A stretch of 44,631 nucleotides of DNA, from contig JABWBO010000025.1 of NCBI GenBank assembly GCA_013360465.1, forward strand, positions 1 to 44,631. The letters run 5' to 3'. This document shows positions 7,670 to 22,228 of the stretch, piece after piece; the first letter of the stretch is position 1, and the number at the start of each line of letters is the position of its first letter. This DNA is from Anaerolineae bacterium. Its GTDB lineage: Bacteria; Chloroflexota; Anaerolineae; Aggregatilineales; Phototrophicaceae. Made by a program: the position numbers and the translations under genes. A model generated the notes under the pieces. That model searched no databases. It was given only the letters and a program-made list of their open reading frames with translations, and was not told where the DNA came from.

Positions 7670-8926
7670 TTAGCTCGATAGGGCAAGGCGCAGCAGGTCC
7701 AGGGCTTGCAGGGTGAGCAGGTTGCGCAGCGTGCCGCCATAGCGCCGCTCGCCGCCGTCGAAGTCGCAGAAGCGCCCCGGCTGCGTGCGCAGATGTGACC
7801 CGTCACTGGCGATTCCGCTGTCCGGCAGGGGGCGCGCCGCCGCCCACAGATGGATCAGCGGCGTGCCCCGTTCGCCCGCCAGATCGACCAGCGTCTCGTT
7901 GAACGCCAGCGAGGAGTCGTAGGCGTCGCGCCCTGGCAGCACGACGAATGTGGTCAGCACCGGGATGACGCCGCGCGCCAGCGTCTCATCGAGAATTCGG
8001 TTGATGTTCTCGCGATACGCCGTCTGCGACATGGCGATCACATCCCTGCCGCCCAGCATCAGGATGACGGCGGCGGGGCGCGTCGTGCGCAGCTCGCAGG
8101 TCAGCGGCGTCTCGCCCGATTCGCAGCGGGCGTCCGTCGCCCAAAGCGGGTCGAGCGCGGCGGCGCTGTTGAACCCCATCTGCACGGCGGCGCTCTGATG
8201 CGTGAACGCCGACTCGCCGCCGCTCAGGGGAGGGGTATTGAAGTAATCGACGGTCTGCTGCAAATAGCCGTAGCTGCCCCAGGCGCAGTAGTTCTCCAGG
8301 ATCAGCGGGCGCAGAAAATCGCCGCTCAGGCTGTTGCTGTCGCCGACCGTCGTGAAGCCGCGCGGGTTGTTGCCCAGCGCCCGCCCCCGCTCGATGATCG
8401 CCCGGACCTGCGGCGTGTCGAACTGCCACAGCAGCGGCACGCCGAACAGCGCCAGTTCCGCCGCGTCCAGCGGCGGCAGGGCTGCCGCCTCGACCGGCTG
8501 GGCGGTCGGCGCGGCGGCGACGATGAAAGGCGTAGGCGACGGGAAGACGAAGGGCAGCGGCGCGAGCGTTGGCGAGAGCGCGGTCGCGGAGATCGGGCGC
8601 AGGGCGCGGGTCGGAAGCGCGGCGACCACAGCATCCGGCATCAGCGGCGGCGCGCCTTCCAGTCCGCGCGAAAGCGTCGTTAGGGGTGTGGGTTCCGGCG
8701 ATGACGGCTCAGCGCTCGCCGGCACAATCGACGGATTAGCGCCATATGGAGTGGGCAGCAGGATCGGCTGGATCGGCGTTGAAGCGGAGGGTGAAGGGTA
8801 TGCCGGGAGCGGCATCGTCGTGAAGGGTGCGGCGGTCGGCAGATGCGCCGGCGTGGGCAGCGGCGCAACCCCCGCCGCTGCGCACCCGCTCAGGATCAGC
8901 AGCGCCAGGAGCCAGAACCGGTTCAT
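7670..8926 (-). CDS. SGNH-fold lipoprotein with Pro-rich linker
   Basis: A lipoprotein signal (MNRFWLLALLILSGC, Cys15 as the acylated residue) is followed by ~130 residues rich in Pro, Ser, Thr and Ala, which look like a spacer away from the membrane. An SGNH hydrolase/transferase domain covers ~165-415. Block I is GDS (Ser197) and block V is DGSH (Asp375, His378). In block III the usual Asn of GxND is Arg294 (LGGRD). The start at 8926 is chosen because its ATG overlaps the stop of the upstream SGNH gene (ATGA). Its 3' end is duplicated as the remnant at 4199-4420. By analogy with DltD and PatB-type proteins it would act on acyl esters of surface glycans. The missing oxyanion Asn makes simple esterase activity uncertain. 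Confidence 0.8.
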   Translation of the reverse strand: MNRFWLLALLILSGCAAAGVAPLPTPAHLPTAAPFTTMPLPAYPSPSASTPIQPILLPTPYGANPSIVPASAEPSSPEPTPLTTLSRGLEGAPPLMPDAVVAALPTRALRPISATALSPTLAPLPFVFPSPTPFIVAAAPTAQPVEAAALPPLDAAELALFGVPLLWQFDTPQVRAIIERGRALGNNPRGFTTVGDSNSLSGDFLRPLILENYCAWGSYGYLQQTVDYFNTPPLSGGESAFTHQSAAVQMGFNSAAALDPLWATDARCESGETPLTCELRTTRPAAVILMLGGRDVIAMSQTAYRENINRILDETLARGVIPVLTTFVVLPGRDAYDSSLAFNETLVDLAGERGTPLIHLWAAARPLPDSGIASDGSHLRTQPGRFCDFDGGERRYGGTLRNLLTLQALDLLRLALSS

Positions 8927-9975
8927 GCGTCGTCCATGAGTTCCCACAGGGCAGCCAGCATTTGCAGCGTCGTCAGGTTGCGCGCCACATGCCCATAATA
9001 CAGGTTGCCGGCGCGAAAATCGACCGATCCGGCGAAGCCTCTAGGCGGCGCGTTGGGATGCACCCCGTCCTCATCCAGACCATACCCCGGCAGCAGCCAC
9101 AGCGCGGCATAGGTCTCCATCAGGGGCAGGTGATATTCCGCCGCCAGCCCACGCACGATCTGGTTGAAGGCGTCCACCCGCTCTTCGAAGCCGACGCGCA
9201 GCGGGATGGTACTGAGTACCGGCACGATGCCGCGCGCCGTCGTCAGGTCGATGATCCGGCGCATGTTGTGGGCATATTCGCCGGGGTCCAGCACACCGAC
9301 ATCGTTGGAGCCGAGCAGGATCAGCGCCAGCGCCGGCTGCATGAGGCGGTACTCGCACAGCAGCGGCGGCTCGTCTTCCCGGCAGGTTTCGGAGTCGGCA
9401 TAGGACGCGGTCAGCACCGAGTACGAAGTCCAGCCGACGCCCGCTGCCAGCGAGCGCCGGGCGAACGAGTCGCCGCTGAAGCCGGCGAGGGCGCTTTCCA
9501 GGTAGCCGTAATCGGCGAGGCGGGCGAATCCTTCGGCGACCGGTTTCAGGTAGTGATCGGCGACGGTCAGGCTGTCACCCACCTTGGCGAAGGCGTCGCT
9601 GCGCCGTCCGAGCGTCCGACCGAGCGCCAGCAGCGCCTCGACCCGCTCGATCACCGTCGGTTCCAGGCGCACCCGTCCATCGAGCAGGACTGCGGCATCT
9701 TCGCGGATGAAGGTCGTCAGTTCGCGGTAGACCCACCCTACAGCACCGCGATCCGTCATGACGTACAGCCAGCCGCCGCCGGGCGACAGGCGCATCACCG
9801 TGAGCGAAGTTCCGCCCGGCAGCGTTTCGAGGATGCTCGCCTCCAGAGATGGCGCGGCGCGCAGGTTGACGCGCCCGACTTCAGGGTTGATCATGGCGTC
9901 CTGTGCGCGCAAGAGTCGTCCTCCAGGTGCGGTCAGGAGAAACGCCGTCAGCAGCAGCCAGCGGAGAAATCGCAC
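8923..9975 (-). CDS. secreted SH3-SGNH hydrolase/acyltransferase
   Basis: After a signal peptide (ends near LLRAQ, residue ~25) comes a bacterial SH3 domain (~34-85, VNLRAAPSLEA to GWVYREL), a module that binds cell-wall glycans or peptides. An SGNH domain follows with a full set of catalytic blocks: Ser135 in GDSL, Asn224 in GSND, Asp303 and His306 in DGVH. The start is taken as GTG at 9975, preceded by AAGGA and 14 nt after the ligase stop. An upstream in-frame start at 10026 would overlap the ligase and add an Arg-rich extension before the signal peptide. It is translationally coupled to the next SGNH gene. It is closely similar in layout to the SH3-SGNH protein at 18038-19183. Confidence 0.82.
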   Translation of the reverse strand: MRFLRWLLLTAFLLTAPGGRLLRAQDAMINPEVGRVNLRAAPSLEASILETLPGGTSLTVMRLSPGGGWLYVMTDRGAVGWVYRELTTFIREDAAVLLDGRVRLEPTVIERVEALLALGRTLGRRSDAFAKVGDSLTVADHYLKPVAEGFARLADYGYLESALAGFSGDSFARRSLAAGVGWTSYSVLTASYADSETCREDEPPLLCEYRLMQPALALILLGSNDVGVLDPGEYAHNMRRIIDLTTARGIVPVLSTIPLRVGFEERVDAFNQIVRGLAAEYHLPLMETYAALWLLPGYGLDEDGVHPNAPPRGFAGSVDFRAGNLYYGHVARNLTTLQMLAALWELMDDA

Positions 9976-9989
9976 GCCCCGTCCTTGCG

Positions 9990-11684
9990 CTAGTCCGCCC
10001 CTTCGGCGTCGCGTTCTTGCAGCCACTTCGCCCGGTTCGCCGAACGGGCGATCTTGCCGCTGGAAGTCTTGATCAGCCAGCGATCATCGACCAGTTTGAC
10101 GTAGCTGACGGTCACGCCGGCGCGCGCTGCCACTGTCCGGCGGATGTCGGCATTGATGGCGCGCAGCCCTTCGTCATCGGGCGCGCCGATCACCTCGGCG
10201 ATGACGACGACCAGCTCGGTCCCTTCACGCTCGTCGAACACCCCGAACGCCACCGCCCGACCGGGGTAGACGCCGCCCACCTGATTGACGATGGCTTCCA
10301 GGTCGGCAGGGAAGATGTTCTTGCCGCCGTTGATGATCAGGTCTTTCTTGCGCCCGCTGACGTAGACCTCGCCGTCCGCCAGATAGCCCAGGTCGCCGGA
10401 CAGGAACCAGCCGTCAGCGCCCAGGGGGTGAAGGTCCGGGCGCTTGTAATATTCGCTCAGCAGACAGTCGCTGCGCACGGCGAACTCGCCGACCTCCCGG
10501 TCGCCCAGCACGCGCCCCGACGCCGGATCGACGACGCGGATTTCGGTGTGGCGGATCACACTTCCGCACGACACCTTGGTGACGGCGCGCGGGTGGTCCG
10601 GCGGCACGACGACCGCCCGACCCTGCACTTCCAGCAATGCCCGATCCAGCATCTCGACTCGTGGGATCGTCCCCACCGGCGTCTGCGAGACGGCGAAGAC
10701 GTTCTCCGCCATGCCATAGCCGACGGTCAGCATCTCGCGGCGGCAGCCGATTCCTGCGAAGCGCTCGAAGAACAGGCGGTGACTCTCGTCGGCGACCGGT
10801 TCCGACTCGTTGATGAACAGCCGCATCGAGGCGAGCGACAGCCCTTCCAGGTCGCGCTCGCGAATGCGCCGGGCACAGTGGTTGTAGGCGAAGTTCGGCA
10901 GCCAGCAGAGCGTCCCCTGGTATTCGGTGATGGCGCGCAGCAGCATCGCCGGGGCTTTGACCCATTCGAACGGCGACATCAGGATCAGCGGGATGCCCTG
11001 GATCAGCGGCATGAGGAAGCCGGCGATCAAGCCCATGTCGTGATACAGCGGCAGCCAGCTCACAATCACGTCGGACTCGCTCAGGGCGATGGCTTCGTGG
11101 TAGCTCGCCAGGTGGTTGAGTACCGCCCGATGCGACAGCGCCACCCCTTTTTGCAGCCCGGTCGTCCCGCTGGAATGCTGTAAGAAGGCGATGTCATCCG
11201 GGGCGGCAGGCACGCCGTCCGACTCCGCCGGCGCTGCCGACTCAACCTGTGCCGTGCTGTAGACGGCGCAGGACACCACTTCGCGCAGCAGCGACGCGAA
11301 ATCGTCGGTCGTGAAGACGGCTTTGACGCCCTCCCGCGCCGCCAGGTCGCCGACGCTCTGCCGGTAGATCAGCGGATCGAGCTTCTCGGTCAGCGTGGGA
11401 AACATCGACGGGATCGCGCCGATCCACAGCGCACCCCAGAAGGCGGCGATGCTCTCCAGCCCGTGCGTGTGGGCGATGACGATCAGGTCGCCGGGTCCGA
11501 CGCCCTGTGCCCGCAGCGCGGCGGCAGCGCGCTGCATCAGCCGTCGAAACTCGCCGCGCGTGATGACCAGCGGCGGAGACGCCTGACTGATCATGACCAG
11601 GGCGACGGCGGCGGAATCGGCAGAGGTCAGGACGGCGGAGTCCAGCAGCATATGATAGCGGTCCCGGGTTTCCAGGCTGAGCAT
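9990..11684 (-). CDS. fatty-acyl-AMP ligase-like adenylating enzyme
   Basis: An ANL-superfamily enzyme that activates a carboxylic acid as acyl-AMP and usually passes it to a carrier protein. Seen: the P-loop SSGTTGLQKG at 171-180, WLPLYHDMGL at 210-219 (a hallmark of FAAL-type ligases), GYGMAEN near 342, SGDLGYLADGEVYVSGRKKD and the C-terminal catalytic Lys544 in KTSSGKI. The 564-aa length fits FAALs. It lies 17 nt after an acyl carrier protein gene and just before two SGNH genes. I infer that it charges that ACP, as DltA charges DltC. The sequence looks more like a fatty/hydroxy-acid ligase than a D-alanine ligase. The start ATG at 11684 has no clear Shine-Dalgarno sequence. Confidence 0.85.
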   Translation of the reverse strand: MLSLETRDRYHMLLDSAVLTSADSAAVALVMISQASPPLVITRGEFRRLMQRAAAALRAQGVGPGDLIVIAHTHGLESIAAFWGALWIGAIPSMFPTLTEKLDPLIYRQSVGDLAAREGVKAVFTTDDFASLLREVVSCAVYSTAQVESAAPAESDGVPAAPDDIAFLQHSSGTTGLQKGVALSHRAVLNHLASYHEAIALSESDVIVSWLPLYHDMGLIAGFLMPLIQGIPLILMSPFEWVKAPAMLLRAITEYQGTLCWLPNFAYNHCARRIRERDLEGLSLASMRLFINESEPVADESHRLFFERFAGIGCRREMLTVGYGMAENVFAVSQTPVGTIPRVEMLDRALLEVQGRAVVVPPDHPRAVTKVSCGSVIRHTEIRVVDPASGRVLGDREVGEFAVRSDCLLSEYYKRPDLHPLGADGWFLSGDLGYLADGEVYVSGRKKDLIINGGKNIFPADLEAIVNQVGGVYPGRAVAFGVFDEREGTELVVVIAEVIGAPDDEGLRAINADIRRTVAARAGVTVSYVKLVDDRWLIKTSSGKIARSANRAKWLQERDAEGAD

Positions 11685-11701: not shown

Positions 11702-11950
11702 CTAGAGATCGCGCAGGACCCGCGCGACCATCAGGTCGAGCGTATCCATCTTGGCGACGGTCAGATCGGGATCAGGGATGTAGACGTTGAAGGTCTTCTC
11801 GACGTAGACGCCCAGTTCCGCCAGCGCAAACGAGTCCATCAAACCGCCGGAGATGATTCCTTCGTCGTCCTTCAGCGGATACTTGGCGTCGCGAATCAGT
11901 TCGCGGGTGATGTAGGCGCGCAGCTTCTCGCGAATATCATGTTCAGTCAT
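11702..11950 (-). CDS. acyl carrier protein
   Basis: An 82-aa four-helix carrier protein. Ser40 in the GGLMDSFALAEL segment is the expected 4'-phosphopantetheine attachment site (DS motif at the start of helix 2). The C-terminal region (FNVYIPDPDLTVAKMDTLD) matches PP-binding domains used with AMP ligases rather than the fatty-acid synthase ACP, whose site is usually DSLD. The start ATG at 11950 has GAGGAA eight bases upstream. The adjacent ligase gene is the obvious charging enzyme. It would be the DltC counterpart of the proposed envelope acylation system. Confidence 0.85.
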   Translation of the reverse strand: MTEHDIREKLRAYITRELIRDAKYPLKDDEGIISGGLMDSFALAELGVYVEKTFNVYIPDPDLTVAKMDTLDLMVARVLRDL

Positions 11951-18037: not shown

Positions 18038-19183
18038 ATGAAACGACTCTGTGCCGCTTTTGCCGTGACGCTGATCCTCCTGGCGTTTGCCGGCTCCGCC
18101 CTGATGCAGGACCCCGCTTCGCCGTCTCTGACCAGCGCCTTTCAGGACATCAATGTCCGCCAGGGTCCGGGAACCACCTACCCGACGCAAGCCCGCCTAC
18201 GCACCGGCGTCCCGGTGCAGATCATCGAACGTAACAGCGTTGGCACGTGGGTGCATGTGCAGCAGACGCTCGAAGATGGCACGATTTTCATGGACGGCTG
18301 GGTGGTGAGCGGCTTCCTCAACCTCAGCGTAGAACTGCGCTTCAGCCAGGTCCCGGTCAGCACACTTGCCGACGCCCTGCCAGAAAACGCCGAGTCGCCT
18401 GCGCTGCGAGCGCTCTACAGCGCGCCGATCATCTCGCCGGTCAGCGAGGCGATGCGCGTCGTCTACCAGCGCGGGCTGGAAATGCGCAACTACTCCCATG
18501 TCGTCACCAAGATCGGCGACAGCGTGAGCGCCGACCCGCTCTACCTGACGCTGATGAGCCGCCCAGGAGCAGCGCTTGGTCCCTATGACTACCTGCAGGA
18601 CTCGCTGGACTATTTCGGCGCATCCACCCAGGTCGAGAGCGTGGCGGCGCGCATCGGCTTGAACACCTACGCCCTTTTCGACGCCGGTTGGGCGAGTCCC
18701 GATACCTGCCAGCAAGGCGAGACCCCGCTGGAGTGCGAGCTGCGGCGCAAACAGCCCAGCGTGGCGCTGATCATGTTCGGCGGCAATGATGTGAAACACA
18801 TCAACGAGGTTGCCTACGATCAGCAGATGCGCCGCCTGGTCGAAGAGACGCTGGCGAAAGGCGTCATCCCGGTGCTGAGTACGTTCAGCGCCAACCCCAA
18901 CGATCCAAACTGGTGGAAAGCCGTCGAATTCAACAACAAGGTGATCCAGATCGCGGCAGATTACCAGCTCCCGCTGATCAACCTCTGGCTGGCGTCACGC
19001 CCGCTCGACGGGTTCGGTTTGGAGCAGGACGGCATCCACATGAACCATTGGGGGACCGACACGCTGCGCTTCGATAACGGTTTCCCGGCGTTTTCTGGCG
19101 CGAACCTGCGCAATCTGCTGGCGCTGCGCATGTTGGACGAAATCCGCCGGACGATCTTTCTTGACCCCACCGCGCAAGGATAA
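18038..19183 (+). CDS. secreted SH3-SGNH hydrolase/acyltransferase
   Basis: Signal peptide (MKRLCAAFAVTLILLAFAGS), bacterial SH3 domain (~37-95, INVRQGPGTTYPTQ to DGWVVSGFL), then an SGNH domain. Catalytic blocks are complete: Ser162 in GDSV, Asn250 in GGND, Asp331 and His334 in DGIH. The domain shares long segments with the minus-strand SGNH proteins, such as YDYLQDSLDYF, ETPLECELR and GVIPVLSTF, so the two loci carry paralogs. ATG at 18038 is chosen over GTG at 18023 because it begins the signal peptide. It is the first gene of a five-gene operon with an MBOAT acyltransferase. It probably adds, moves or removes acyl groups on a surface glycan. Confidence 0.85.
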   Translation: MKRLCAAFAVTLILLAFAGSALMQDPASPSLTSAFQDINVRQGPGTTYPTQARLRTGVPVQIIERNSVGTWVHVQQTLEDGTIFMDGWVVSGFLNLSVELRFSQVPVSTLADALPENAESPALRALYSAPIISPVSEAMRVVYQRGLEMRNYSHVVTKIGDSVSADPLYLTLMSRPGAALGPYDYLQDSLDYFGASTQVESVAARIGLNTYALFDAGWASPDTCQQGETPLECELRRKQPSVALIMFGGNDVKHINEVAYDQQMRRLVEETLAKGVIPVLSTFSANPNDPNWWKAVEFNNKVIQIAADYQLPLINLWLASRPLDGFGLEQDGIHMNHWGTDTLRFDNGFPAFSGANLRNLLALRMLDEIRRTIFLDPTAQG

Positions 19184-19193
19184 GGCACACGCC

Positions 19194-19598
19194 ATGCACA
19201 AACTCTCTCTGTTGATCTTCCGGCGGATGTGGACGTTCCGCCTCATCGCGGTATCCGCGCTCCTGCTGCTGGCGGCGTGCGGCGGCGGTGCGACCAGCGA
19301 CCCGGCGGATGTTGTGCTGCGCTTCATGGACGCCAAGGCAAAAGCCCATGCTGACACCATCCGCTCGCTGATTTGCAGCGAGATGGAGTCGGCATGGGAG
19401 CAGCAGGCGGCGTCCTTTGGCTCGGTCGAAGCGCGTTTGGAAGGCGCATCCTGTTCGCGCGGCGGCGAGTCGGACGTGGTCGCCTGCGCCGGCAGCATCG
19501 TCGCCGTCTACGGCACGGAGACGACCTCCTTCCCGCTGACCTCCTACCGCGTCGTGCAGGAAGACGGAGAGTGGAAGTGGTGCGGCGAAGCCCCCTGA
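19194..19598 (+). CDS. small lipoprotein, NTF2/DUF4878-like
   Basis: The 134-aa product has a lipoprotein signal with lipobox LLAAC and a Gly-rich spacer. A ~95-residue domain follows: a helix (DPADVVLRFMDAKAKAHADTI) and beta strands (DVVACAGSIVAVYG, TSYRVVQEDGEWKWCG). This pattern resembles NTF2-like lipoproteins. Four Cys in the mature domain could form disulfides. It begins 10 nt after the SGNH gene, and its stop overlaps the next start by one base (TGATG). A role as an outer-surface accessory of the acyl transfer complex is inferred from operon position. Confidence 0.7.
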   Translation: MHKLSLLIFRRMWTFRLIAVSALLLLAACGGGATSDPADVVLRFMDAKAKAHADTIRSLICSEMESAWEQQAASFGSVEARLEGASCSRGGESDVVACAGSIVAVYGTETTSFPLTSYRVVQEDGEWKWCGEAP

Positions 19599-19726
19599 TG
19601 CGTCGGCTGATCGCGGTCGTTTTCGCGCGCGAGAACCGCATCGCCTTTGGTCTGTGCCTGCTGATCATCGCCCTCCTGGTCCTGACGACGGACAGCGCCC
19701 CGACGTGGATCTATCAAGGCTTCTGA
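19598..19726 (+). CDS. DltX-like membrane microprotein
   Basis: A 42-aa protein with a basic N terminus (MRRLIAVVFARENR), one membrane helix (~15-31) and a C terminus ending exactly in TWIYQGF. DltX microproteins of Gram-positive Dlt operons have the same build: ~45-50 residues, one helix, and a terminal Phe-x-Tyr-x-x-Phe whose tyrosine takes part in acyl transfer through the MBOAT protein DltB. Here the motif is Trp-Ile-Tyr-Gln-Gly-Phe. The ATG overlaps the lipoprotein stop by one base, and its 3' end overlaps the proposed MBOAT start, so expression is tightly coupled. It is too short for most gene finders. Confidence 0.72.
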   Translation: MRRLIAVVFARENRIAFGLCLLIIALLVLTTDSAPTWIYQGF

Positions 19727-21105
19727 CTCAGCGCCTTTATGCCTGGCTGCTGCTGATCGCCGGCGGCGCGGCGGTCTTCCTGCTTCAGCCCCGCCTGCCG
19801 ATCCGTTTCAGCGATTTTCTGCTGCCCACCGCCTCCATCGGGCTGGTCATCGCCGCCTGGTGGTGGAGCCGCGCGCCGGAGCAGCGCCCGACCCGCCAGG
19901 ACGCCTTTGCCGCCGCCCTGCTGGTCGGCGTCGTGCTGCTGCTGGCGCTCAATCGCTACCTGCCGGAAACGTCCCGGATCACCCCTTCGCGCCCCCCGGA
20001 CCTGGGAGCGCTGATCGCCGGTATGGCAGCTGCCGCCGGCGCAGCGGTGGCGCTCTGGCGGGTGCTGCGCGAGGTCTCCGTCGGCGGGCGCACCGGCGTG
20101 CTGATCATCCTGATCATCGGGCTGTTCATCCTGCTGAAGACCGAGCTGCTGGCGGGAATCCTGAGCGCCGCCTGGCGAGGCGCGACCGGGCAGGATGTGC
20201 AGATCGCCAGCGCCCTCGACCTCAACTGGCTGGGCTTCAGCTACATCGCCTTCCGCCTGATCCATACGCTCCTCGACCGGCGAAGCGGTCTCCTGCCGGC
20301 GCTGGCGCTGCGCGACTACGCCGTCTACGCGCTATTTCCGCCGGCGCTGATCGCCGGACCTATCGACCGGGCGGATCGCTTCGCCGCCGAGCTGGCGTCC
20401 GAGCGGCGCTGGGATGCCGACCGCTGGGCAAGGGGCGGCGCGCGCATCGCTGTGGGCGTCTTCAAAAAATTCGTCCTCGCCGACACGCTGGCGCTCGGTC
20501 TGGCGCTGAACGCCGTCAACGTCGATCAGGCACAGGGGGCAGGCGCGCTATGGCTACTGCTCTACGGCTACGCGCTCCGGCTGTTCTTCGACTTCAGCGG
20601 CTACAGCGACATCGCCATCGGCGTCGGCATCTGGCTTGGGATTCAGCTGCCGGAAAACTTCGACCGCCCCTACTTCAAGACGACCCTCACCGCCTTCTGG
20701 CAGAGCTGGCATAAAACCCTGGGCGACTGGGCGCGCTTCTACGTCTTCAGCCCGCTCACCCGCGCCCTACTGCGCCGCGACCGCAAACCTTCGCCGGCGG
20801 TCATCGTCGGCATCGGGCATCTGGCGACCATGCTCTTGATCGGGCTGTGGCACGGCGTGACGATCAATTTCGCCGTCTGGGGTCTGTGGCAGGCGGCAGG
20901 GCTGTATGCACACAAACGCTGGAGCGACGCCACGCGCGGTTGGTATCGCGGGCTGAACCAGAAGCCGAGCCAGAAGCGGCTGTGGACCCTGCTGACCTGG
21001 TTCATCACCTTCCATTACATCGTGCTGGGCTGGGTGTGGTTCGCCCTGCCCCATTTCGACGACTCCCTGCGCGCCCTGGGCAGGCTGTTCGGCGTGGGCT
21101 GGTGA
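19705..21105 (+). CDS. MBOAT O-acyltransferase (DltB/AlgI/PatA type)
   Basis: A polytopic membrane enzyme with about ten or more helices that transfers an acyl group across the membrane to a glycan. The MBOAT core is clear: FFDFSGYSDIAIG, then FWQSWHKTLGDWARFYVFSPL (His336), and the nearly invariant His383 in GLWHGVTINFAVWG. Length is ~466 aa. The start is uncertain. GTG at 19705 gives a short cytoplasmic N terminus before the first helix and overlaps the microprotein gene by 22 bases; the farther in-frame start at 19654 adds hydrophilic residues with no relatives. It lies between the DltX-like microprotein and an anchored SGNH protein, as in dlt and alginate acetylation loci. Confidence 0.9.
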   Translation: MDLSRLLTQRLYAWLLLIAGGAAVFLLQPRLPIRFSDFLLPTASIGLVIAAWWWSRAPEQRPTRQDAFAAALLVGVVLLLALNRYLPETSRITPSRPPDLGALIAGMAAAAGAAVALWRVLREVSVGGRTGVLIILIIGLFILLKTELLAGILSAAWRGATGQDVQIASALDLNWLGFSYIAFRLIHTLLDRRSGLLPALALRDYAVYALFPPALIAGPIDRADRFAAELASERRWDADRWARGGARIAVGVFKKFVLADTLALGLALNAVNVDQAQGAGALWLLLYGYALRLFFDFSGYSDIAIGVGIWLGIQLPENFDRPYFKTTLTAFWQSWHKTLGDWARFYVFSPLTRALLRRDRKPSPAVIVGIGHLATMLLIGLWHGVTINFAVWGLWQAAGLYAHKRWSDATRGWYRGLNQKPSQKRLWTLLTWFITFHYIVLGWVWFALPHFDDSLRALGRLFGVGW

Positions 21106-21112
21106 GGCGCGT

Positions 21113-22228
21113 ATGACCTGGACCAAGCTCGCCCGCATCGCCATCAAGACGGCGCTGTTCTTTGCCCTCTGCAACGTCGTTTTCGCGGCGACCGGCGCGC
21201 TGGACTGGCTGAACAGCGTATCGCTGCACAACCTGATCCTGCCCGGTCGGGCGCGGCTGCCGTACGGCGAGAATCCGGGGCAGTCCTACAGCCTCAGCCC
21301 GGACAGTCTGACGGTGATGTTCGCCGCTCACCGCCTCCGCCAGCCAAAAGCGGCGGACGAATACCGCATCGTCTTGATCGGCGACTCCGGCGTGTGGGGG
21401 TGGCTGCTCTCGACCAACGAGACGCTCGACGCCGCGCTGAACGAACGCGATCTGCGCGCCGCCGACGGTCGCCGGATGCGGTTCTACAATCTCGCCTATC
21501 CCATCCAGGCGGCGCTCAAAGACCTGATGCTGCTGGACGAGGCGGCGCAGTACGCGCCCGACGCCGTCGTCTGGTTCACCACACTGGACGGCTTCCCGCG
21601 CGACAAGCAGGTCTACCCGCCGCTGGTGCAGCGCAACCCCGACCGCGCCCGCGAACTTATTCACCGCTACACGCTGGCGCTCGACCCGGCAGATGCTCGC
21701 TTCGTCGAAGGCGGCGGCTGGTGGGACCGGACGATCTTCGGCGCACGCCGGCAGATCGCCGACTGGCTGCGGCTGCAGGTTTTCGCGGTCGCCTGGGCGG
21801 CGACGGGCGTGGATCAGGCAATGACCGAGGTCCAGCCGGTGCGGGTCGATCAGGATGCGGACCTGACCTGGAACGGCAGCGCCGCCCCGCGCGATCTGAC
21901 GCGCCGGGACCTCGCCCTGGAAGTCCTGGCGGCGGGCGCGGCGCGAGCAGAGTCGGCAGGGACGGCGCTGTTGATCGTCAACGAGCCGATCTTCATCACG
22001 CCCGGCGCGAACGGCGATGTACGCTATAACAGCTGGTATCCCCGCTGGGCATACGACTCCTACCGGGCGCTGCTGGCGGCGGAGTGCGCCGATCGGGGCT
22101 GGGCGTGCCTCGATCTGTGGGACGCTGTGCCGTCAGATCACTTCACGGACTCGCCGGTGCATCTGACGGCGTCCGGCTGGCAGATCGTCGCCCAGGCGGT
22201 GGCGAATCAGATCGGCTCAATGCCCTAG
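21113..22228 (+). CDS. membrane-anchored SGNH protein (DltD/AlgX-like role)
   Basis: A 371-aa protein with one N-terminal membrane helix (~8-28) and an extracytoplasmic SGNH domain. Block I is IGDSGVWGW (Ser92), and the last block is TDSPVHLTASGWQ (Asp346, His350). The GxND block is replaced by WFTTLDGF, as in other acyltransferase-associated SGNH proteins that are not simple esterases. It begins 7 nt after the MBOAT stop. It is only distantly similar to the SH3-SGNH paralogs. By position and build it should receive the acyl group from the MBOAT complex and pass it to the glycan, as DltD does. Its 3' end overlaps the convergent reductase gene by 12 bases. Confidence 0.8.
   Translation: MTWTKLARIAIKTALFFALCNVVFAATGALDWLNSVSLHNLILPGRARLPYGENPGQSYSLSPDSLTVMFAAHRLRQPKAADEYRIVLIGDSGVWGWLLSTNETLDAALNERDLRAADGRRMRFYNLAYPIQAALKDLMLLDEAAQYAPDAVVWFTTLDGFPRDKQVYPPLVQRNPDRARELIHRYTLALDPADARFVEGGGWWDRTIFGARRQIADWLRLQVFAVAWAATGVDQAMTEVQPVRVDQDADLTWNGSAAPRDLTRRDLALEVLAAGAARAESAGTALLIVNEPIFITPGANGDVRYNSWYPRWAYDSYRALLAAECADRGWACLDLWDAVPSDHFTDSPVHLTASGWQIVAQAVANQIGSMP

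Follow-up and report, generated by a model that had tools for sequence, protein, structure and literature searches.

The acyl-shuttle model was reportedly founded by Schultz et al. in 2023. In the Dlt pathway, according to a 2025 paper, DltB moves D-alanine from DltC to the tyrosine of a C-terminal FXYXXF motif in DltX, from which it passes to the serine of DltD (PMC12148441). PatA, in the same source, acetylates the tyrosine of a C-terminal motif of its own, and the non-Dlt MBOAT/SGNH pathways are described as users of acyl-coenzyme A (acyl-CoA) that have neither a carrier protein nor a microprotein (PMC12148441). A second paper places the active residues of DltB on the extracellular side, with His289 and His336 at the active site, and has DltC dock on the cytoplasmic side of DltB (PMC11035591). 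As far as we found, a separate tyrosine microprotein has been described only in the Gram-positive D-alanine pathway.

The window analyzed here is a 44,631-nucleotide stretch from an Anaerolineae bacterium (contig JABWBO010000025.1). It holds a gene set for which literature searches limited to CC-licensed PMC articles showed no earlier report in Chloroflexota among the papers listed. The genes lie in two runs about 6 kb apart on opposite strands, and the genes between them look unrelated, a judgment made without a domain scan. The features are as follows.

7670..8947, minus strand: SGNH-like protein in the same gene run as the ligase; PF13472 at 26.0 of 32.9 bits
8923..10026, minus strand: SH3 and SGNH protein, directly after the ligase gene
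9990..11684, minus strand: fatty-acyl-AMP-ligase (FAAL)-like enzyme encoded immediately after the carrier; proposed DltA role
11702..11950, minus strand: acyl carrier protein (ACP), 82 aa, proposed DltC role; GGLMDSF, with Ser40 at the phosphopantetheine place
18038..19183, plus strand: SH3 and SGNH/GDSL protein; homologues often nearby in relatives
19194..19598, plus strand: small lipoprotein-like open reading frame (ORF); its stop overlaps the microprotein start; a homologue is nearby in many loci
19598..19726, plus strand: proposed acyl-shuttle microprotein, 42 aa, on the basis of ORF, motif, profile matches, and codon pattern
19705..21105, plus strand: DltB-like MBOAT; start GTG 19705 or 19654; ends LFGVGW, without the tyrosine motif
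21113..22228, plus strand: SGNH protein, proposed DltD role; residues 3-27 form an N-terminal helix in the model; GDS motif with Ser92, and His350

The locus resembles the DltX system in pairing a short one-helix protein, with aromatic-x-Tyr-x-x-Phe at its C terminus, with an MBOAT that lacks the motif, and it resembles dltXABCD in that an SGNH protein, a carrier protein, and an AMP-forming ligase also belong to the gene set. Unlike Dlt, the set is found in Chloroflexota rather than Bacillota, its gene order varies and sometimes places the microprotein with the ligase, the ligase is FAAL-like rather than DltA, and the carrier and MBOAT fall below the DltC and DltB cut-offs. With fused MBOATs (PatA/PatB and AlgI-type) it shares an MBOAT and SGNH pair and an FxYxxF-type C terminus, but in those systems the motif sits on the MBOAT itself, and they are described as fed by acyl-CoA without a carrier or microprotein (PMC12148441). 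The features of the MBOAT/SGNH acyl-shuttle class are met here by the catalytic histidines, the SGNH partner, and the tyrosine motif on the microprotein, with acylation of that tyrosine inferred; the fused-motif type is not met, as the window MBOAT ends LFGVGW. We file the gene set within the MBOAT/SGNH acyl-shuttle kind and not as a member of DltX, the acyl relay again being an inference.

The microprotein gene

The translation of the microprotein gene (19598-19726, plus strand) is MRRLIAVVFARENRIAFGLCLLIIALLVLTTDSAPTWIYQGF, 42 aa, followed by a stop. A basic N terminus leads into one hydrophobic helix and then the C-terminal WIYQGF; the family consensus for this end is (D/E)(S/T)APxWIYQGF, and Tyr39 is the proposed acyl carrier. 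The stop of the upstream lipoprotein-like ORF (TGA 19596-19598) lends its A to the ATG of the microprotein (TGATG, a one-base overlap), and the MBOAT frame comes immediately next, its candidate starts being GTG 19705, which lies within the microprotein gene, and GTG 19654. The first-pass annotation, which had described a 42-residue ORF with a one-base stop/start overlap, one membrane helix, and a WIYQGF end directly before the MBOAT gene, was confirmed on the sequence in all of these points. Under the positive-inside rule, basic residues ahead of a hydrophobic stretch leave the C-terminal tail outside; as basic residues precede the hydrophobic stretch here, we infer that the tail faces outside.

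In 69 loci with both microprotein and MBOAT, the microprotein stop is TAG in 29, TAA in 25, and TGA in 15, and an in-frame MBOAT ATG immediately follows the stop in at least 14. The two genes share a frame with a single stop between them in 35 of the 69 (about half, against one third expected), an excess that common ancestry may explain (junctions L037-L116). Stop readthrough from microprotein into MBOAT was considered and rejected, because all three stops are used and an ATG directly follows the stop in at least 14 loci. Since TAG, TAA, and TGA are all in use, the product is a peptide of its own whose C terminus is free, and not a recoded extension of the MBOAT.

No Pfam or NCBIfam family was found for the microprotein (no Pfam match at E ≤ 1), a PDB search with its profile returned one chance match (E = 3), and when 23 members were scanned against Pfam and NCBIfam, the handful of isolated weak matches, each in one or two members, did not include DltX. 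An annotated homologue is BCY19582.1, a hypothetical protein of Leptolinea sp. HRD-7 that ends WIYQGF. In that organism (L117), the microprotein-MBOAT pair is carried on a 212-kb plasmid, and both genes are annotated as hypothetical.

Conservation and distribution

A search with the MBOAT matched 101 of 151 related whole genomes (E ≤ 1e-20). Among 29 loci of relatives found via the MBOAT (L003-L031), 23 have a microprotein ORF upstream, all within about 0.4 kb, a count made with regular expressions that required the motif. The other six lack a nearby ORF: one MBOAT lies at a contig edge (L003), three have a copy on another contig (L015, L024, and L030), in L028 the microprotein is about 12 kb away, and for L010 none was found anywhere in the genome (G017). 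A profile search, in which the motif was not required as such, matched 91 of the 151 genomes, including a few weak rows and one genome (G134) whose sole row falls inside a fused MBOAT.

In an alignment of 23 sequences (22 relatives and the window), E12, N13, A16, A34, P35, I38, Y39, Q40, and F42 are invariant; the alignment of ORFs upstream of MBOAT genes, proposed with the first-pass annotation, thus finds its tyrosine and terminal phenylalanine kept. Loss of the ORF from relatives that keep the MBOAT would have refuted that annotation, and the opposite was observed, with the microprotein present in 79 of 80 genomes that have a strong window-type MBOAT. This count leaves out 21 of the 101 MBOAT genomes, whose matches are no stronger than about 1e-45 and are not of the window type.

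The pattern [DE][ST]APxWIYQ, run across 84,980 species genomes, hit 123 stretches, 117 of which are relatives by tblastn. The titles of the 80 relatives listed among these 117 are those of Chloroflexota taxa, except for two labeled "uncultured bacterium" (L047 and L048), and the cultured Levilinea saccharolytica (L046, with microprotein and MBOAT) and Longilinea arvoryzae (L099, with all five genes at the locus) are included. Because the pattern is narrow, divergent copies elsewhere would be missed. When 301 genomes were sampled evenly across the phylum, the matches listed place the microprotein in 26 of 38 members of the class (E < 1e-10) and include one weak match (2e-4, within a 215-aa frame) from the 263 genomes outside the class; class membership in this sample was inferred from listing order.

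Single-base codon differences among 81 copies are 37,437 synonymous to 10,885 nonsynonymous, where random change would give 25% synonymous, and the two shifted frames of the same gene show mostly nonsynonymous differences. Mismatch frequencies by codon position are 0.32, 0.15, and 0.56 in these copies. The tyrosine is present in 81 of 81 and the terminal residue is Phe in 80 and Tyr in 1; the set was picked by a pattern containing WIYQ, so that the invariance of W, I, Y, Q, A, and P is partly due to how the copies were chosen. The first residue of the motif is Trp in most copies and Phe in some. Distant short MBOATs (38 to 41% identity) have variant microproteins ending PEFIYQGF, PRFVYGGF, or PRFIYTGF, and a further variant, HNFIYAGF, lies on the other strand beside a distant short MBOAT.

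That the ORF is spurious might be argued from its very short length and the lack of a Pfam or NCBIfam family, but this is scarcely credible given in-frame purifying selection across the 81 copies, profile matches in 91 of 151 genomes, and the annotation of BCY19582.1 as a hypothetical protein in Leptolinea sp. HRD-7.

MBOAT and SGNH partners

For the window MBOAT, which lacks an ATG in frame around its beginning, the best start is GTG 19705, inside the microprotein gene; the near relative L038 has an in-frame GTG at the same offset. It scores 57.9 bits against PF03062 and 207 bits against the DltB model TIGR04091, below the 375-bit cut-off, and in a PDB sequence search DltB alone was matched at E ≤ 0.01. 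His336 and His383 (numbered from 19705) align with the two active-site histidines of DltB, and both are invariant in 27 MBOAT members. We also modeled the microprotein and MBOAT of L039 as one chain, with the stop read as Gly; the mean pLDDT was 89, the tail and the joint being of low confidence, and the best PDB fold match was DltB (8jem, E = 1.2e-14).

None of 69 partner MBOATs ends in the tyrosine motif, three of them running off a contig and two being interrupted. In the collected loci as a whole, 16 of 129 complete MBOAT ORFs (at least 330 aa) do carry the motif at the C terminus, none of them within L001-L116. In a tree built from 29 microprotein-type MBOATs, 16 fused ones, and 2 DltB (47 in all), every one of the 16 fused ones falls on one side (support 100/96), and the same split recurs (100/99) in a tree of 42 rows (24, 16, and 2, respectively) from which the C-terminal columns had been removed. 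The microprotein-type MBOATs and DltB form the opposite side in both trees. Only two DltB rows were available, on a long branch (2.63 in the 47-row tree), and the microprotein-type MBOATs alone are less firm as one group (93/71 and 87/51). In the window's own genome, a second MBOAT fragment near a contig start (L002, G000:C90) ends FIYFQF, a fused motif, and both kinds of shuttle may therefore coexist there.

The SGNH protein that follows the MBOAT (21113-22228) has a GDS serine, Ser92, and a histidine, His350, that do not vary across an alignment of 32 members. Its predicted structure has a mean pLDDT of 93.4, and the top-ranked PDB matches of the model are DltD chains (7dxm, E = 7.4e-6, TM 0.43, rmsd 11.8), a loose fit with other SGNH esterases close behind. 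PF13472 is matched at E ≤ 0.1 by 29 of the 32 members and the DltD model by none at that threshold; at the window locus, the DltD model PF04914 reaches 11.3 of 22.7 bits. The SH3 domains of the companion SGNH proteins suggest, by inference, work at the cell wall.

Ligase and carrier protein, and comparison with Dlt

The lead to the ligase came from loci without an MBOAT neighbor, which show an AMP-binding ligase directly before the microprotein. The window ligase (9990-11684, minus strand) has 51% identity to the ligase found beside the microprotein in relatives. Its best PDB match is 3pbk, named Fatty Acyl-Adenylate Ligase (E = 4.6e-64), and the 15 PDB chains matched at E ≤ 1e-40 include FadD32 and others under different names, none named DltA. 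Its first two NCBIfam matches are a CoA-ligase model (344 of 572 bits) and a FAAL model (323 of 600 bits), all 25 models listed being under their cut-offs, and against true DltA it scores 26.6 bits. In the adjoining carrier, Asp-Ser-Phe is invariant in 24 aligned members, 19 of which match PF00550 (PP-binding) at E ≤ 0.01; the window ACP itself stays below the cut-off (E = 0.032, 14.9 of 20.8 bits), and its best NCBIfam match, an ornithine-lipid ACP model, is far below its own (30.9 of 130 bits). Searched against the PDB, the carrier profile finds mostly carrier proteins, DltC chains among them, and it aligns with a DltC at an hhalign probability of 78.5 (E = 1.7e-5). A 647-aa ORF in L069 was considered as a ligase-microprotein fusion and rejected, as it has no Pfam match and the ligase there lies in another frame.

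In sequence, with a fatty acyl-adenylate ligase as the best PDB match, and in the adjoining ACP gene, the pair resembles FAALs with stand-alone ACPs. These usually accompany a polyketide or lipopeptide synthase, whereas here they are linked to MBOAT, SGNH, and microprotein genes. With a FAAL-like ligase, an acyl group other than D-alanine is the more likely case, and fatty, hydroxy, or other acids are possible.

The first-pass annotation had called the microprotein DltX-like, which stands for its anatomy and fails by family model, as 0 of 23 members match PF12459 (DltX, cut-off 25 bits), against which a true DltX used as a positive control (L118) scores 72.6 bits. Most members also differ from DltX in that their motif begins with Trp in place of Phe. 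NCBIfam gives no information on DltX, since the control matches nothing there either, and a tblastn search for more DltX in plasmids returned only the query's own record. The further claim that the gene lies outside the classic dlt operon is upheld, as the DltX, DltC, and DltA models find nothing above cut-off in the window's own genome: the best DltX score is 9.6 bits, at another place, and the best DltA and DltC scores are 77 of 559.85 and 16.8 of 52.35 bits, also at other places.

One could still suppose ordinary Dlt D-alanylation in divergent form, with a ligase that activates D-alanine and a DltX that the models miss. The 207 bits of the MBOAT against TIGR04091, DltD as the best PDB match of the SGNH protein, the carrier's alignment with DltC and the DltC chains among its PDB matches, and the tail of true DltX (GSPKFIYNEF), which lines up with DSAPTWIYQGF at an hhalign probability of only 12.5, can all be read that way. 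We think it quite unlikely, because no member matches PF12459, the DltB score is below its cut-off, the ligase is closest to a fatty acyl-adenylate ligase with no DltA among its 15 chains and only 26.6 bits against DltA, and the genome is without DltA or DltC above cut-off.

Gene linkage and co-occurrence

Near 80 named microprotein loci, we found a short MBOAT at 68, the ligase at 39, and the carrier at 37; all five genes, including the SGNH protein, are present at 30, and 6 show none of the partners. Flanks of up to 10 kb per side were searched, often shorter, with profiles partly built from the same loci. Over the 151 genomes, the microprotein was found in 91, the carrier in 93, the ligase in 88, and a strong window-type MBOAT in 80. 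The 91 microprotein genomes contain the ligase in 84 cases, the carrier in 83, and the MBOAT in 79 (not corrected for kinship), and all four core genes occur in 70 of the 151 genomes and none in 49, the Fisher tests ignoring shared ancestry. In one family, the microprotein gene lies directly behind the ligase gene and away from the MBOAT, and in L081, L088, and L113 the ACP gene is directly behind the SGNH gene.

Several other arrangements were seen in these loci. L116 (387-7460) holds a duplicated cassette, in which a single microprotein lies between two MBOAT/SGNH pairs and the carrier and ligase come after them. In seven loci (L063, L065, L069, L070, L078, L120, and L122), a ligase-microprotein pair directly precedes the same type of neighbor genes, which we take from their sequence to be hydrogenase-maturation-like (HypA, HypB, and HypF), an unusual setting that nevertheless recurs. 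A 402-aa bacterial ORF in L058 (8094-9302, minus strand) matches the Pfam family PHAX_RNA-bd at 60.9 bits, a domain familiar chiefly from a eukaryotic protein that takes part in RNA export.

The linkage bears on whether the donor might instead be acyl-CoA, as in PatA, with a microprotein that shuttles while ligase and ACP belong to an unrelated nearby pathway. The window ACP and ligase indeed lie some 8 kb off, on the opposite strand, two genomes (G007 and G008) have both ACP and ligase but lack an MBOAT match, the best NCBIfam match of the window ACP is an ornithine-lipid model far below its cut-off, and the 2025 paper describes the non-Dlt MBOAT/SGNH systems as acyl-CoA users (PMC12148441). 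However, the linkage recurs in varied orders, one family has the ligase adjoining the microprotein, the ACP directly follows the SGNH gene in three loci, the genes co-occur across genomes, and the MBOAT groups with the carrier-fed DltB in the tree. An acyl-CoA donor is therefore unlikely in our view, and we retain a carrier-fed relay as the preferred reading.

In two genomes (G114 and G134), ACP, ligase, and an MBOAT ending FIYQGF stand in one run with no separate microprotein, the single weak microprotein row of G134 being within its MBOAT. In a third (G131, 65% complete), which gave no microprotein match, the carrier is present together with an MBOAT whose end is FVYQGF. In two more (G099 and G110), an MBOAT ending FVYQGF or FVYGGF adjoins the carrier, and there is also a microprotein next to the ligase. 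The relatives hold five fused MBOATs that lie next to an ACP and have YQGF or YGGF as their last residues, on account of which a strict rule that a carrier protein means a microprotein was rejected; G099 and G110, which hold both, show that a carrier does not strictly imply a microprotein.

The microprotein might also be only a structural or regulatory subunit of the MBOAT that carries no acyl group. Single-helix microproteins often act as scaffolds, no covalent intermediate has been seen (there is no biochemistry), and G099 and G110, with both microprotein and fused motif, are exceptions to a swap between the two. Yet the C-terminal motif with its invariant tyrosine is the most conserved part of the protein, the corresponding tyrosine is acylated in DltX and PatA, and the microprotein is present where the MBOAT lacks the motif and absent from G114 and G134, where the MBOAT has it. 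We consider a subunit without an acyl group very unlikely and keep to a microprotein that carries one.

Partners are missing from some genomes. In five with both microprotein and ligase (G115, G138, G140, G141, and G142), a search for an MBOAT domain gives nothing at E ≤ 1e-5, and two same-genus genomes, G007 and G008 (L177 and L178), have ACP and ligase with neither a microprotein nor an MBOAT domain match. These genomes are 73 to 96% complete, so gaps may explain the absences, which has not been shown. The carrier and ligase of G007 and G008 may serve another acyltransferase, or the genomes may be incomplete.

A proposed acyl relay

We hold it probable that Anaerolineae acylate their envelope with a Dlt-like machine in which the microprotein is the mobile part that bears the acyl group; the chemistry, the topology, the formation of a complex, the acyl group, and the target are inferred. 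The proposed order of ligase, ACP, MBOAT, Tyr39, and SGNH protein follows from the published Dlt and PatA steps together with the two aligned histidines of the window MBOAT. The FAAL-like ligase would activate a carboxylic acid with ATP and load it onto the phosphopantetheine arm of the small ACP, and the DltB-like MBOAT would accept the thioester from the cytoplasmic side. Its conserved histidine pair may then hand this group on to Tyr39, within the WIYQGF tail that faces outward. The tail is envisaged to swing to the membrane-anchored SGNH protein, whose serine would take the acyl group and presumably esterify an envelope polymer.

The best reading of these data is a relay of the Dlt kind in which no DltA, DltC, or DltX exceeds its cut-off, although every chemical step in it is inferred. 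What it rests on by observation is the genes, their conservation and co-occurrence, the partner MBOAT without the motif, and predicted folds like those of DltB and DltD. Somewhat more guardedly, but still as the likely case, we propose that Anaerolineae own a second, non-D-alanine, carrier-fed transmembrane relay with a FAAL-like ligase, an ACP, and a detachable tyrosine microprotein that bears the acyl group outside; lineages would differ in whether the tyrosine sits on the microprotein or on the tail of the MBOAT, and in one family the microprotein is encoded together with the ligase.

Implications for envelope modification

The novelty lies in the pairing, outside Dlt, of a stand-alone microprotein with a carrier protein; the acyl relay is an inference. 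The first-pass annotation had expected the microprotein mechanism to be more general than the Gram-positive dlt operon; this new pairing supports the idea, and the generality of the tyrosine shuttle was already in print for fused-motif MBOATs (PMC12148441). That source states that the non-Dlt pathways lack carrier and microprotein, whereas the present gene set has both together, with a different activating enzyme (PMC12148441).

A small gene without a Pfam model thereby gains a proposed role, and split and fused versions of apparently one pathway, provided by nature, are open to comparison. If the relay is as proposed, the split architecture with a microprotein tends to accompany carrier-protein donors, and it may predate or run parallel to Dlt. 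To our knowledge, little is known of the envelope chemistry of the bacterial class Anaerolineae, and it becomes testable which acyl group is placed on which polymer. Even without data on the chemistry, this widely kept gene set points to a second envelope-modifying pathway that works in the same way with another acyl group.
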